From Gaiella sp. (GTDB lineage Bacteria; Actinomycetota; Thermoleophilia; Gaiellales; Gaiellaceae), in contig JAOSJZ010000001.1 in NCBI GenBank assembly GCA_027493885.1, positions 1-64,000 of the forward strand: 64,000 bases of DNA. The letters are read 5' to 3'. Of this stretch, positions 12,562-45,960 are shown piece by piece. The translations under genes and the position numbers were made by a program. The notes beneath the pieces were generated by a model, which searched no databases, was not told the origin of the DNA, and saw nothing but the letters and a program-made list of their open reading frames with translations. How positions within the stretch are numbered: position 1 is the stretch's first letter; every line of letters begins with the position of its first letter.

Positions 12562-15328
12562 GAACGGTCTGCTCCGGCAGCGCGACCGCCTCTCCGGCCT
12601 CGGGTCGGACCCAGTAGACCGCGATGTACTTCAGCGCGGCCGATTCCTCCAACGGCACCCTCACGAGGTCGAAGACGTCTCCGATCCCGGCGTAGAGGCT
12701 CGTGGGTCTCGGTTTCCCTCCGGGATTGAAGTCGACGATCACATCGGGGGGTTCGGCGACGCCGTATGCGAGCCGAGGCAGCTTCGCACACGGCGTTGCC
12801 TCGAACAGGAACGGCGCCACGAAACTCACGGCCCGTGGACGATCGAGAATCGCACTGAGTCGTGAGGGCGTGTATGGAACCGGTCGTGTGATCACGGCAG
12901 TCCCACGAAGGCCTTTGGTGCCGGTGGCATCGAAGCGAATCATGTTCGCATCCCGTGGCCGGCGCGGAAGGCTGTCCTCGGCCAGGAACTGCCAGCGCGC
13001 GTAGCCCCAATTCGCCTGACCGATTTGAGCCTTGCCCGAGCGCAGATGCTTGATGCCTGACGATGTCCGACGCCCCCACGTGACGCGTAGCCGATTGACC
13101 CTGCGGAGGCCCTGCGTGAAGACGCCGACCGACTCCTTCGGCACCGGGTACCAGCCGGGGATCGGGGAGACGGCCGGCGTTACGTCGCCTCGGTGGCTGG
13201 CTATGGCTCTGACCGACCTGGAATCGAGGGCGGCGCCCGATCGTAGGGCACCTGGCACGGAGACGACGAGATCCGAGGCGACGCCGCAGCCGTCGCGACC
13301 CCCGAAGCTCGAGAGAACCTGACGCGCCGCGGTCCATTCTCCTGGTGTGGCCGCGTCGATCGCAAAGAGCAACGTGGTCATGCTCAGGAGCGCCGCGGTG
13401 AGGACGGGAAGCACGACCAACTGCGGCCGAGAGACCCAGCGCAGCCCAGACGCAACGAGCAGCCCACCGAACGCCAGTACCGTCGCTGCCACGTACGGGC
13501 GCGTCGAATACAGCACTGCCAGCCGTTCGGTGTCGATAGGGCCCCAGATTCCCGGATAGCGTACGGCCCAGAGGACAGCGATCAGCCCTCCTGCCACGAC
13601 GGACCAACGTGCGACGCTCACAAGCTTGAGGGTACCGAGGCGATAGGTCTCGAACCCCAGCGCCACGACCGAGAGCCCGATGAGAGCTCCGAAATGCCAG
13701 ATCCATTTGCTCGGCGCAAAGACGAGGGTGACGAGCCCGACCAGAACCGACGCCGTGGGCAGGCGTTGGGCAAGGTTCCGCCGCGAGAAAGCGGTCGCTA
13801 CGGCCAGCAGCCCGGCGAGCAGGATCCAGCCGACGACCAATCTCCGGAGCGGTGAGGCTCCGATGAACGACAGGCTGGCATAGCGGTCGAGTTCCTGGAG
13901 GATTCCGGCGCCGTGCTCCTCGGTATCCCGAAGCAGCGCCAGGCTGACACGATGGGTCGTGAAGTCAGAATCGAGGAACGCGAGCAGAACCATCCAGGCG
14001 AGCCCAATCGGCACGACCGACGCGAGCTCTAGAACGTCGAACGCGATCCGGCGACGCGCATCACGGATCATCTGTGGCACGCAGATCGCAAGGGGAGCGA
14101 AAGCGACGGCGCCCGACGGGTGGATCGTCACGGCCAGGCCACAGAGAAAGGTGGAGAGAGCGATCGGCCACAGCCGAGGGCGCTCGAGGTAGTCAAGTGA
14201 GCAGCCGAGCACCGCCACGGCGAGCAGCGAGATCGCCGGCTCCGGACGAAGCGTGATTCCGAAGGCCGCCGCTCCGAGCGAGAAGGCCATTGCTGCCGTC
14301 CACCATGCAGCGTCAGCACGCGTCGGCCCCCTGCCAACCAGCTTCGTCAGGCACGCCCGGCACGCGCCCCAGGTCGCGGCGACCACGAGGATCGTCGCCA
14401 GTCGGTGGAGGGCAAGCGCATCGGAACGCCCGACGACAAAGTGTTGCAGCCATTCGAACCACGTCGCCATCGGGAGGTTTGCTCCCCAAGGCTCGTAGAA
14501 GTTCGAGAACCCTCCCGAAACGAGGGAGTTCACCTGTCGCGCCCGGACCCAGCCGTCGTCGAAGTGCAGCGGAGCCAGCAACCACCACGCTCCGAGCGTC
14601 ACGCCGACGAACAGATCCTGCGTTGAGAGACCGATGCGTCGCCTTCTCGGCCACGCCCGCGGCCGCATCAGCGGCCACAACAGCACGATGACGGCGATCG
14701 CGAGGAAGATAGCGCCGACGATCCGGAGCGCGGTCTGGCCGGCGCTCGGGCGCGTGTCCTGTGCGATCGGTCGTACTCTCACCGAGAGAGGCGCCCCGGC
14801 GTGCAGGTCGAGCTCGGTGATCAACCCGAACACTGTCGGGCCGGAGGTGAGGGTGCCGCTGCGCATCGCCTTGCCCCTCTGCGTCACGGTCCACCTGCGA
14901 CCGTCGACGACGACCTCGATGGTGCAGCCCCGGGCCGCCCTGCCTGGATTGATCGTCGCCAAGCGGTCGCGCCCCACGCTAACGACGGTCTTGCCCGTAC
15001 CGACGGATCTGACGATCTGGAGAGCGTTCCAACCTGCGGCATCACGCGCGGTGGCGAGGAGAACGACAGACTTCCCCGCCCCGTTGAGTGCACGCTCCTT
15101 TCCGCACGGTATATGCGCGCGCAAGGTGTCGGGGGTGTGCCGTGCAAGCAACATCGGAGCGAACCAACTCCGGTTCGGAGCTGCAGCAGGGAGCTGCGCG
15201 GGCGGCCACACGAACTCCGCTTGCTGGGTGATGGCGGGCCCTCGGGCGGCGACCCCCGCCGCGACAAGCGCACCGAGACCAAGGAGAATCGCCAATCCTG
15301 CGCGCCTGTCGTCAACCCGGCGGTTCAT
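12551..15328 (-). CDS. Emb-like arabinosyltransferase (GT53/GT-C)
   Basis: A 925-aa membrane protein resembling EmbA/B/C arabinofuranosyltransferases, which add arabinose from decaprenyl-phospho-arabinose to cell-wall arabinan. The GT-C acidic pair lies in HFDDGWVRARQVNS (Asp257-Asp258) after an N-terminal extracytoplasmic domain; many helices follow, then a C-terminal beta-rich domain (about residues 650-925) as in the Emb carbohydrate-binding module. It is somewhat shorter than mycobacterial Emb proteins (about 1,070-1,100 aa). Third gene of an operon after the epimerase and the GT2-PaaK fusion. The polymer made is unknown. Confidence 0.75.
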   Translation of the reverse strand: MNRRVDDRRAGLAILLGLGALVAAGVAARGPAITQQAEFVWPPAQLPAAAPNRSWFAPMLLARHTPDTLRAHIPCGKERALNGAGKSVVLLATARDAAGWNALQIVRSVGTGKTVVSVGRDRLATINPGRAARGCTIEVVVDGRRWTVTQRGKAMRSGTLTSGPTVFGLITELDLHAGAPLSVRVRPIAQDTRPSAGQTALRIVGAIFLAIAVIVLLWPLMRPRAWPRRRRIGLSTQDLFVGVTLGAWWLLAPLHFDDGWVRARQVNSLVSGGFSNFYEPWGANLPMATWFEWLQHFVVGRSDALALHRLATILVVAATWGACRACLTKLVGRGPTRADAAWWTAAMAFSLGAAAFGITLRPEPAISLLAVAVLGCSLDYLERPRLWPIALSTFLCGLAVTIHPSGAVAFAPLAICVPQMIRDARRRIAFDVLELASVVPIGLAWMVLLAFLDSDFTTHRVSLALLRDTEEHGAGILQELDRYASLSFIGASPLRRLVVGWILLAGLLAVATAFSRRNLAQRLPTASVLVGLVTLVFAPSKWIWHFGALIGLSVVALGFETYRLGTLKLVSVARWSVVAGGLIAVLWAVRYPGIWGPIDTERLAVLYSTRPYVAATVLAFGGLLVASGLRWVSRPQLVVLPVLTAALLSMTTLLFAIDAATPGEWTAARQVLSSFGGRDGCGVASDLVVSVPGALRSGAALDSRSVRAIASHRGDVTPAVSPIPGWYPVPKESVGVFTQGLRRVNRLRVTWGRRTSSGIKHLRSGKAQIGQANWGYARWQFLAEDSLPRRPRDANMIRFDATGTKGLRGTAVITRPVPYTPSRLSAILDRPRAVSFVAPFLFEATPCAKLPRLAYGVAEPPDVIVDFNPGGKPRPTSLYAGIGDVFDLVRVPLEESAALKYIAVYWVRPEAGEAVALPEQTVLSA

Positions 15329-42292: not shown

Positions 42293-42312
42293 GCGTGCAT
42301 TCTGCGCACCCT

Positions 42313-42318
42313 AGGATC
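42313..42318 (+). promoter_or_regulatory. -10 box (TAGGAT) stranded upstream of the intron
   Basis: TANNNT box 6 nt before an ATG (42325) that directly abuts the intron 5' end GTGCG. The layout matches leaderless starts elsewhere, so this is probably the original promoter of the threonine dehydratase gene, now 2.7 kb away in DNA. Confidence 0.5.
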
Positions 42319-42706
42319 GCTGCATGGTGCGTCCTGAAAGCTGGATCAGGCCAGCGGGTGTGAGTCCCGTCCGGGTAAGCGCCGGAGCGCCCGGTAGCAG
42401 GCCCCGGTTCGTCGTTGAGAGGCGGCGGGCTGAGCGGGGCGTCGAGAGCCTCTTTGGAGGGAGCAAGCGTGTGGGCCGTAGCGTCGAAGGACGCGAGTTC
42501 TGCAGCCTCGTTAGATCCACCGTGGGGGAGCCGAGCCGCTCATGTCACGGCGAAGGCCATGTCCGCCAGTCCTTGTTCCGGATTGGGTGTGGCGGGTCCC
42601 TCCGGGGTATGGGGAGCGGCGCGTACGTATGGTCTGGTTCGGAACAGGAGAGACCCGTCTGCGCAGCCTCGTCAGCAAAGACCGTTCGTATAAGCCGGTG
42701 GTGAAG

Positions 42707-43454
42707 GTGTGTCCTGCAACTGCGATGGGCTTGCCGGTGCAAGTCCGGCCCGGGTAGTGGCCAAGCAGCCCGGTAGCTGGTGGCCGACGGAAGGAGAGAT
42801 CCGACTGTCGAAGCGCTATGACAAAGCCCCTTCGGGGGGCGAGCAAGCAACCAGTCCGTACGACAAGGAATCCTGCAGCCTCGTCACGGCAACGATGTGG
42901 ATGCCGAGCCTCTCTTCACTGGGCGAAGGCCATGGACAGCGCGAAGAACTTGGAGGCAGCGCTGTCGCCACCGGGGTAAGGGGATCGGAATGGTTGCATA
43001 GTCCGCCGCGGAACAGGAGAGATCCGTCTCGGCACCGGCAGCACATGGCCGTGGTGAGCCGCATCGCGGCGCCCGGTAACCGCGAGACCTATAAGCAGCT
43101 CTGCTGTGAAGTGGTGGAGCGCCGAGCGGAAGTCGGAGCAGGTCGTAGTAGTGATGAACGGCGGAACAACAGAACCCGTCGGAGCGAAGGGCCTGTAGCC
43201 GGGTGTGCGACTGGTTCGGAAGGGCTGCGGGCTTGCCGTGCCAGGAGCACGGCCATTCACCCGTCCACCGTTGGTGGTGATGTCCTCGCCGACACCTCGT
43301 CGCTTGGAGCGTCCGCCAACGCGTTGGCAGCGTGGAATGCGAGCGCTCGACTGCCCGGGGAGAGCCGGATGAGGGAGAACTTCATGTCCGGTTCGGGGAG
43401 GGGGTGCAGGAAACGCACCGCGATCTGCGGTGGCGCGCCTGCGCCCTACTTCAC
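42707..43454 (+). mobile_element. Inner ORF-less group II intron
   Basis: About 750 nt. The 5' end GTGTGTCC is followed by GGTGCAAGTCCGGC...GTAGTGGCCAAGC, typical of domain I. It shares many blocks with the outer copy (GCAGCCTCGT, GGCGAAGGCCATG, GGAACAGGAGAGA, TATAAGC...GTGAAG). It has its own domain V (43362-43394) and a domain VI-like stem ending near CCCTACTTCAC, and no reading frame for a maturase; it may depend on a related RT in trans. Confidence 0.75.
43362..43394 (+). ncRNA. Domain V of the inner intron
   Basis: GAGCCGGATGAGG...CTTCATGTCCGGTTC: lower stem CCGGA/TCCGG, upper stem TGAGG/CTTCA (one G-U pair), two-base TG bulge, AGC triad at its 5' side. Full catalytic-domain architecture. 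Confidence 0.8.
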
Positions 43455-43568
43455 TCGGGCGGAGCGCAGCGGGAGTCCGACGGGGCCGTAGTACCGGCCG
43501 GTGCTTTGGTGTCGGTGGGGAAGGGCCCCGGCTTCGGTCACGGTTGCGAAGCGGGTACGCGTGAGGGC

Positions 43569-44908
43569 ATGGCCGGGGCCGCCCGGCCGATCTTTCCCGG
43601 TCGGCGTGAGCCGATCGACAAAGTGCGACGCCTGCAACGCAAGCTATGGGCTGCGGCCAGGCGGTCTCCGGAGCGGCGTTTCCACGCTCTTGCCGACAGG
43701 GTCTACCGGGATGACGTCCTGGTGGAGGCGTGGCGATGTGTCCGGGCAAACAGGGGTGCGGCCGGTGTTGATCGGGTGACGCTGGCGGCGGTCGAGGAGT
43801 ACGGGGTCGAGCGGATGCTCGACGAGCTTTCTTGTGCTCTTCGGTCGGGCACCTATCGTCCCGCGCCGAGCAGGCGTGTGATGATCCCGAAGGCTGGTGG
43901 TGGGCGGCGTCCGCTGTCCGTCCCGACGGTGCGTGACCGGGTCTGCCAGCAGGCGGCCCGGATCGTGCTGGAACCGATCTTCGAGGCCGACTTTTTGCCG
44001 GTCTCGTATGGCTTCCGGCCGCGCCGTTCGGCGACGCAGGCGGCAGAGGTGCTGCGGGAGGGATATATCCGCGGCTACCGCTTCGTCGTCGAGTTCGACA
44101 TCCGCGACTGTTTCGGCTCGATCGACCAGACCAGGTTGCTTGAGGCCGTTGGTCGGCGGGTGTCGGATCGTAGGGTGGTGAAGTGGATCCGTCTGTGGCT
44201 TGAGGTAGGGGTGATGGAGGAAGGGTCGTTGCGGCCGAGTGTGGCCGGGACACCGCAGGGCGGGGTGATCTCCCGCTTCTGGCGAACATTTACCTGCACG
44301 CCTTTGACCAGACGCTCACCGCTTCACGGGTGGGCGAGCTGGTGCGCTACGCCGACGACGGTGTCGTGCTCTGCCGCAACAGGCGGCAGGCGGAGGCGGC
44401 CCTGGTGCTGGTCGAGCAGACGCTCGCCGAGCTGGGGCTCCAGACACACCCGGTGAAAACCCGGATCGTTGACCTCAACGACGGTCGCGAGGGCTTCGAC
44501 TTCCTCGGCTGGCACTTCCGCCCGCGCGTCTCGGGCCGGCTGCTGGAACGCGGCATCCGCCGCTACTACCTGCACCGGTGGCCGAGCCAACGGGCGATGA
44601 AGACGCTACGCGGGAAGATCAAGACCCTGACCGGTCGCCACCGACTCGGAATCGGGGACATCCGCGAGCTGATCGCGGCGCTGAACCCGATCCTGCGCGG
44701 CTGGGGCAACTACTTCCGCACCGGCAACTCCACGCTCAAATTCATCCAGCTCGACCGGTACGTGGCCTGGCGGCTCAAGCGTCTTCTGATCAAGAAGCGC
44801 GGCCGCAACCTACGCGCCGGCCAGGCGGAGCGATGGACACGCCAGTGGCTCCACCAGCAAGGGCTGTACTGCCTCATGGGCACAATCCGCTACCCGAAGG
44901 CAGCGTAA
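43569..44908 (+). pseudogene. ltrA: Group II intron reverse transcriptase/maturase, one frameshift
   Basis: Intron-encoded protein aiding splicing and retrohoming. RT blocks: DRVYRDDVLVEAW, GAAGVDRVTL, RRVMIPKAGGGRRPLSVPTV, YGFRPRRSATQA, FDIRDCFGSID, GTPQGGVIS, then after the frame change LLANIYLHAFDQ, RYADDGVVLC (catalytic YADD), FLGWHFRPR and a maturase/thumb region (LNPILRGWGNYFRTGNS). No HNH endonuclease domain. ISP-LL is split because a CCCC run is read CCC at about 44272; restoring one C gives 446 aa. Real inactivation or a consensus error. Confidence 0.88.
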
Positions 44909-44930
44909 CCATGTCCAGAAGACCGTCGGA

Positions 44931-44963
44931 GAGCCGTATGCGGGAAAACCGCACGTACGGATC
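44931..44963 (+). ncRNA. Domain V of the outer intron
   Basis: GAGCCGTATGCGG, GAAAA turn, CCGCACGTACGGATC: lower stem CCGTA/TACGG, upper stem TGCGG/CCGCA, two-base CG bulge, AGC triad. It lies 22 nt after the RT stop, as expected. Confidence 0.88.
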
Positions 44964-45018
44964 GAAAGGGGGACGGGGAACCAGGCCCGCACCGCGGACA
45001 CTGCGCCCCTGACTACCA

Positions 45019-45960
45019 ATGAGCGACGGGCCTCCGACTCGCGACGACGTCGCCCGTGCGGCCGAGTGCGTCCGCGGGCGCGTCCGGCGCACGCCGCTGC
45101 TCGACGGCTCGGAGATCGCGCCGGGGCTGCGCCTCAAGGCGGAGCTCTTCCAGCACACCGGGTCGTTCAAGGTCCGGGGCGTGACGAACCGGCTGGCCGC
45201 GCTCGGCGACGAGGAACGTCGTGCAGGCGTCGCGGGCGCCTCGGCGGGGAACCACGCGATCGCGCTGGCCTTCGGCGCCGCGCGGGAGGGGCTCGAGTGC
45301 ACCGTGTTCTCGTGGGCGGCGGCGAGCCCGTTCAAGCTCGACCGCGCCAGGGCGCTCGGCGCGCGGATCGACGCCGATGCCGGCGATCCCGCCGGCGCCT
45401 TCGCCCGCCTCGAGGAGCACACGGCCCGAACGGGCGCGACGCTCGTGCACCCCTTCGACGACCCGCTCGTGATGGCCGGGCAGGGAACGGTCGGGCTCGA
45501 GATCCTCGAGGACGGGCACGACGTCGATGTCGTCGTCGTGCCGGTCGGCGGCGGCGGTCTCGTGGCCGGGATCGCGACCGCGGTCGCACCGAGCGGCGTC
45601 CGTGTCGTCGGCGTCGAGCCGGAAGGGTCGGCGGCACTCGGCCCGGGGCTCGAGGCCGGCGAGCCCGTGCACGTGGAGCCCCGCACGATCGCGGGCGGCC
45701 TCGACGCTCCGTTCGCGGGCCGGAACGCGATCGCGGCCTGCCTCGCGGCCGGCGTCAGCGTCGTCACGGTGCCGGACGCCGCGATCGAGGACGCGATGCG
45801 GCGCCTGTACACGGACGCGAAGCTCGCATGCGAGCCGGCCGGCGCGGCGGGCGTGGCGGCCGTCCTTGCCGGTCTCGTGACGGGCCGCTCCATCGTCGCC
45901 GTCGTCTCGGGAGGCAACGTAGGGCCCGAAATCGCCTCTGGTATCCTGGCCGGGCGATGA
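45019..45960 (+). CDS. Threonine/serine dehydratase (PLP fold II)
   Basis: A 313-aa catabolic-type threonine dehydratase or serine racemase-like enzyme; no ACT regulatory domain. The PLP lysine is Lys51 in [28 protein letters not shown] and [14 protein letters not shown] bind cofactor phosphate. ATG 45019 lies at the very end of the group II intron, with no ribosome site upstream in the unspliced sequence; the probable native promoter is at 42313. Overlaps rpmE by 4 bp (ATGA). Confidence 0.85.

Follow-up and report, generated by a model that had tools for sequence, protein, structure and literature searches.

A group II twintron at a start codon in Gaiella and a related intron lineage that appears to favor the starts of predicted leaderless genes

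The stretch of DNA analyzed here (the window) comprises the first 64,000 nucleotides of contig JAOSJZ010000001.1 from the Gaiella sp. assembly GCA_027493885.1 (Actinomycetota). On the forward strand, two nested group II introns occupy positions 42327–45018, between the start codon (ATG, 42324–42326) and the remainder of a gene for a serine/threonine dehydratase-like protein (45019–45960). The outer intron encodes a reverse transcriptase (RT) with a maturase domain (43569–44905), the only RT found in the genome, and is split into a 5' part with domain I (DI; domains are numbered accordingly below) and the start of the DII/III region (42327–42706) and a 3' part with the rest of DII/III, DIV including the RT gene, DV and DVI (43455–45018, or up to 45021 if the ATG at the 3' end is counted as intron). 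The inner intron (42707–43454) has no open reading frame (ORF) and is complete, with DI, DII/III, DV and DVI of its own. The location of the outer intron directly behind the host start codon was absent from the first-pass annotation of this DNA, which had described the nesting.

The Rfam covariance models, combined with the single RT gene, yield the domain order DI-DI-DV-RT-DV. The DI model RF02003 matches at 42352–42486 (82.5 bits) and at 42731–42865 (101.2 bits), the DV/DVI model RF00029 matches at 43360–43454 (51.7 bits) and at 44929–45013 (39.3 bits, marginally under the Rfam cut-off), and RF01998 gives a weak match in the inner intron. The outer intron begins with GTGCG at 42327 and carries DI, DIV with the RT/GIIM ORF, DV and DVI, and the inner one begins with GTGTG at 42707, carries DI, DV and DVI, and ends with CAC at 43454. 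Covariance modelling, which the first-pass annotation had named as a check, therefore gives two DI and two DV/DVI segments rather than one set, and bears out its proposal of two GUGYG ends, two DI, two DV and one RT gene; the outer 5' end, which it had put at 42328, is at 42327.

The nesting is established by comparison with uninterrupted copies. The same genome contains two ORF-less copies of the outer intron, copy A (C1:369541-370174) and copy B (L008; C1:1937086-1937618, minus strand). Copy A, a sister of the outer intron, is unbroken across the junction, where TATAAGCCGATGGTGAAG is followed directly by TCGAGCGGAGGGCAGCGGGAGTC, and the window reads TATAAGCCGGTGGTGAAG, then 42707–43454, then TCGGGCGGAGCGCAGCGGGAGTC. 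Because copy A is continuous at the exact point of interruption, the inner intron is delimited to the base, and its end, previously estimated as near 43454, is correct. The search for uninterrupted outer introns that had also been suggested finds the junction intact in copy A and 20 relatives, all 21 of the sequences aligned with the outer intron. Once the inner intron is removed, the outer intron is continuous, resumes in register with copy A and the relatives, as had been claimed, and aligns unbroken with the relative L080 (82.8% over 523 nt). Copy B is missing the DII/III region, which makes its splicing doubtful. The nested pair is a true group II twintron and adds to the bacterial cases one whose inner intron is located outside DI. 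The supposed rarity of bacterial twintrons is harder to maintain, given the 21 twintrons or multi-copy loci that a survey excluded from its 513 sequences (PMC4028801).

The inner intron was initially thought to lie within DI, and this placement is rejected. The helix that closes the outer DI, formed by TCCTG (42332–42336) and CAGGA (42645–42649), covaries among the relatives (TCCTG/CAGGA, CCTTG/CAAGG and CCGTG/CACGG) and ends at 42649, and the insertion point is located approximately 57 nt further downstream, in a hairpin of the DII/III region. The two strands of this hairpin, 42682–42688 and 43456–43462, are now separated by the inner intron. Pairing in this hairpin reaches 96.4% across 22 sequences, and double-sided changes number 40, compared with a mean of 16.0 in shuffled alignments and 2–14 when the strands are slid against each other; hence, it is a genuine DII/III helix that the inner intron interrupts. 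The global RNAalifold structure of the outer 5' half is a mixed DI fold and was used for the local hairpin only.

The outer sequence immediately upstream of the inner intron, GTGAAG (42701–42706), is the intron-binding site 1 (IBS1) of the inner intron and pairs at six of six positions with its exon-binding site 1 (EBS1), CTTCAC (42914–42919), which is positioned in its loop in the same register as EBS1 in the outer family. These pairings, together with the nesting, substantiate the earlier description of an ORF-less intron residing in a related RT-encoding one. The further claim, of a younger intron having homed into a related one, is plausible, inasmuch as an otherwise conserved hairpin is interrupted in one copy only; on the other side, no second copy of the inner intron was detected in its own genome or in 103 genomes of the family, and a search for its source in 399 genomes of the class returned only partial matches (67–80%). 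The target of the inner intron, TATAAG-CCGGTG-GTG-AAG (42689–42706), itself resembles a -10 box with GTG 6 nt on, the insertion being 3 nt further downstream, perhaps by chance.

The sequence of events suggested by these features starts with insertion of the outer intron directly behind the start codon of the predicted leaderless dehydratase gene, after which the related ORF-less intron would have reverse-spliced, guided by its EBS1, into the outer hairpin just downstream of DI. Given that 748 nt separate the hairpin strands as long as the inner intron is present, the inner intron most likely splices first, followed by the outer one, which would join the start codon to codon 2. The nested order could conceivably result from an assembly join or represent a decayed relic that no longer splices, and the broken RT frame described below speaks for such a reading. 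Either origin is quite improbable, however: the genome has a single copy of the inner intron, on a contig of 3.28 Mb, and the ends of this copy are exact, at the site predicted by EBS1; the outer intron continues in register, its own EBS1 pairs fully with the 5' exon, and the split hairpin is preserved.

The insertion site of the outer intron in the window reads TAGGAT-CGCTGC-ATG^GTGCG, i.e. a -10-like box of the form TANNNT (42312–42317), a 6-nt spacer and the host start codon, with the intron right behind that codon. IBS1 is formed by the final four exon bases, CATG (42323–42326), which pair at all four positions with the core of the outer EBS1 (CATG, 42541–42544). The intron ends with CTACCA (45013–45018), and the ATG that follows (45019–45021), from which the dehydratase-like coding sequence is read, is an intron-borne copy of the start codon; the end of the intron is GACTACCA, followed by ATG AGC GAC. 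Copy A likewise precedes a HutH-like gene (hutH as judged from the translation) and copy B a third gene. By eye, the gene behind copy B is acetyltransferase-like, with an open frame of 193 codons from the intron-borne GTG.

Intron-free loci in a congener confirm two of these insertions at a start codon, those in hutH and in the dehydratase gene. In the congener G043, hutH reads CACTAGACTCGCGCC-GTG-CCGGCCGCG and the dehydratase gene reads CTCTAGGATCGACAC-GTG-AGCGAGGCG; in both, the start codon is present once and the -10 box is retained. The intron-free dehydratase orthologue of the congener, L158, keeps the box in CTAGGATCGACAC-GTG-AGCGAG. As the start codon is single in the intron-free loci, insertion adds the intron plus one RTG.

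This arrangement recurs throughout the lineage of the outer intron (loci L025-L068, L105, L106, L130, L140, L142 and L145, along with the window site at 42312–42326). Relatives of its RT were gathered from genomes of several phyla, and 47 distinct insertion sites were scored. The 5' exon ends with ATG in 37 sites, GTG in nine and GCG in one, so that 46 of the 47 end with RTG; for the third-last exon base, column counts give A in 37 sites and G in the other 10. A TANNNT box ends 6–7 nt before the start triplet in 37 of the 47 sites, compared with a mean of 0.62 in shuffled sequences (maximum of 5 in 20,000 shuffles), the spacer being 6 nt in 22 sites, 7 nt in 15 and 8 nt in another three. In the window, only 10 of 2440 SRTG sites have such a box, and even if the box is assumed to be present at 30% of gene starts, the probability of at least 37 of 47 is approximately 7e-12. 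The possibility that the start-codon sites arise by chance is accordingly rejected. All six loci fetched later (L105, L106, L130, L140, L142 and L145) have TANNNT 6–8 nt before RTG, and the single site lacking RTG, L063, still has TAGAAT 6 nt upstream.

Leaderless genes, which account for an average of 19% of genes in Actinobacteria, are marked by a TANNNT motif some 12 bp ahead of the start codon (PMC3160421); in Mycobacterium tuberculosis, 26% of the genes with a primary transcription start site are leaderless (PMC3898074). The outer lineage thus appears to land almost exclusively at the start codons of genes whose messages are predicted to begin there. In the window itself, ORFs of at least 100 codons with TANNNT 6–7 nt upstream start at 13621 and 18485 (both on the minus strand), 18594, 30349, 33881, 35439, 46216, 47735 and 50311, and leaderless genes therefore seem to be common in this genome.

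Recognition of the exon by the intron RNA is limited to a few bases. Introns behind ATG have CAT as their EBS1 core and those behind GTG have CAC, with a fourth base that tracks exon position -4; copy A, with CAG, is an exception. Pairing is possible with position -3 in 48 of 49 cases and with position -4 in 45 of 49, against shuffled means of 41.8 and 27.4, respectively, and neither value was reached in 20,000 shuffles. At the other end, the lineage introns terminate in CTACCA-RTG and so re-create the start codon. In L038 and L105, GTG precedes the intron and ATG follows it, which indicates that the 3' RTG travels with the intron and refutes the interpretation of the second RTG as a target-site duplication. 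By supplying a fresh RTG, the 3' end of the intron lets the coding sequence keep a start codon.

Taken together, these observations make it highly probable that the locus is a twintron in which an endonuclease-minus outer intron, inserted just after the first codon of a dehydratase gene predicted to be leaderless and belonging to a lineage that targets such starts, was itself entered by the inner intron through EBS1-guided reverse splicing. Several points weigh against this conclusion. The outer DV/DVI match falls 0.7 bits below the 40-bit Rfam cut-off, and the 3' splice site of the outer intron is ambiguous by up to 3 nt, given the RTG on both sides. The outer RT matches TIGR04416 in two frames, with a frameshift near 44271, and, this being the only RT in the genome, current splicing or mobility may be impaired, although the frameshift may instead be a sequencing error; intact relatives of this RT exist. 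The 47 sites are incompletely independent, several of them sharing a genome or an intron lineage, and both splicing and leaderless transcription at these sites are deduced from sequence.

About four base pairs between EBS1 and the exon do not suffice to locate a site, and the remaining specificity has to come from elsewhere, most simply from the -10 region. In the mechanism proposed here, EBS1 (CAU or CAC plus one base) would pair with positions -4 to -1 of the 5' exon, with the -10 box 6–8 nt further upstream, and the intron would enter the single-stranded non-template DNA of the RNA polymerase open complex, which is exposed to about +3, near the downstream edge of the complex. The main rival is that the -10 box is recognized at the level of DNA sequence, through the intron-encoded protein or an EBS2-like RNA pairing, with no role for RNA polymerase, and that leaderless promoters are hit simply in that they carry TANNNT near CATG. 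Protein contacts, along with an IBS2 immediately 5' of IBS1, do serve other introns (PMC9294222), and the box lies approximately 10–15 nt upstream of the insertion point, near the expected position of IBS2. However, the box shifts by 1–2 nt between sites and its three middle bases vary, as they do in promoters, which fits poorly with RNA pairing in a fixed register and favors single-strand entry at the open complex; this objection leaves protein contact with the -10 box in play, and direct reading of the box, although somewhat doubtful, is a serious contender.

Selection could also produce the pattern if the introns inserted at many CATG-like sites and only those behind leaderless starts survived, the spliced message and the intron-borne start codon sparing the gene. 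The intron-borne RTG would indeed lessen the harm to the host gene, but under this scenario harmless intergenic insertions are expected, and yet only one site of the 47 (L063) lacks RTG, and even there the box is in place; the multi-copy expansions in Nannocystis show the same site pattern. Such selection is an unlikely explanation. With regard to open-complex entry, we tentatively suggest, at somewhat short of even confidence, that an endonuclease-minus clade spanning several phyla, of which the outer intron of the window is a member that was itself invaded, uses a fourth kind of group II target, namely the melted non-template strand at leaderless genes, with an anticodon-like EBS1 and a start codon of its own at the 3' end. 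The kinds of target listed in a review are homing sites, transcription terminators and attC sites (PMC4424553).

In the RT phylogeny, the start-codon loci fall into one clade (52 entries, 98% SH-aLRT), of which 46 were scored as start-codon sites. Among the other members, L070 reads TATCGT-CGCGGC-ATG^GTGCG, L030 has no 5' end but retains the 3' end CTACCA-ATG, and the four remaining ones have no readable boundary. The neighboring clades contain an intron from a Rhodococcus jostii plasmid and introns of Bacillota located behind T runs. Unlike the R. jostii pRHL1 intron (L147) and related loci, which have no RTG site and fall in a neighboring clade, the start-codon loci form a clade of their own. 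The pRHL1 intron is presumably Rh.js.I1, a member of class g1; introns of class g1/G are expected to group with it and with Ca.ac.I1.

According to Pfam, the outer RT, as well as that of the intact relative L028, consists of RVT_1 and GIIM without an endonuclease domain (HNH), the same composition of RT and maturase without the D/En region that characterizes the endonuclease-minus introns of class g1/class G (PMC3552965). The 5' ends of class G/g1 introns could not be determined in a survey (PMC8919778). Group IIC introns are likewise endonuclease-minus and recognize a functional motif instead of an extended homing site (PMC4424553), but their motif is a terminator hairpin or attC, whereas that of the outer lineage is a -10 box with a start codon: the 5' flanks conform to TANNNT-N6-7-RTG rather than to a terminator hairpin with a T run, T runs being found in the Bacillota relatives. 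RmInt1 is also endonuclease-minus and enters transient single-stranded DNA (PMC8914252; PMC5894124), with replication forks and an IS target in place of the promoter bubble proposed for the outer lineage. Among the known twintrons, TeI4::TeI3 of Thermosynechococcus elongatus (PMC2882425) similarly combines an ORF-less intron with a related RT-encoding host intron at an EBS/IBS-paired site; unlike that system, the window has a single inner copy, located in DII/III, an endonuclease-less outer RT and a host start codon in front of the outer intron. The Trichodesmium pair Tr.e.I7/I8, for which sequential splicing has been demonstrated, is also a case of nested group II introns in a gene (PMC4649490), but both of its introns encode a protein and the inner one lies in DI, whereas the inner intron of the window is ORF-less and outside DI.

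The start-codon lineage, rather than the twintron, carries most of the significance of these observations. In the literature searched, no report was found of group II introns that target start codons, promoters, leaderless genes or transcription bubbles, with many subscription papers beyond the reach of the search and priority accordingly unproven. If the proposal is correct, the lineage would represent a retroelement able to locate promoters while contributing only some four base pairs itself and re-supplying the start codon, and its insertions would naturally tag leaderless genes across many phyla. Whether promoter melting provides the single-stranded target can be tested directly.

The lineage shows several further peculiarities. 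Some of the introns start with TTGCG or TCGCG, not GTGCG, after RTG (L080, L032, L085, L054, L092, L035, L026, L029, L033, L036, L046 and L068). The 3' ends of the Nannocystis type read GTAGGAT-CTACCA-RTG or close to it (L033, L036, L038-L040, L042-L044, L046-L052 and L055), which has the shape of a -10 box, a 6-nt spacer and a start codon; such ends may allow transcription of the host gene without splicing or may be a by-product of the DVI stem. Co-directionality with replication is the expectation where an endonuclease-minus intron relies on the lagging-strand template. The genome of Nannocystis poenicansa (NZ_CP114040) contains nine copies of the intron (L040, L042, L044 and L047-L052), eight of which look co-directional with replication, assuming an origin near coordinate 0.
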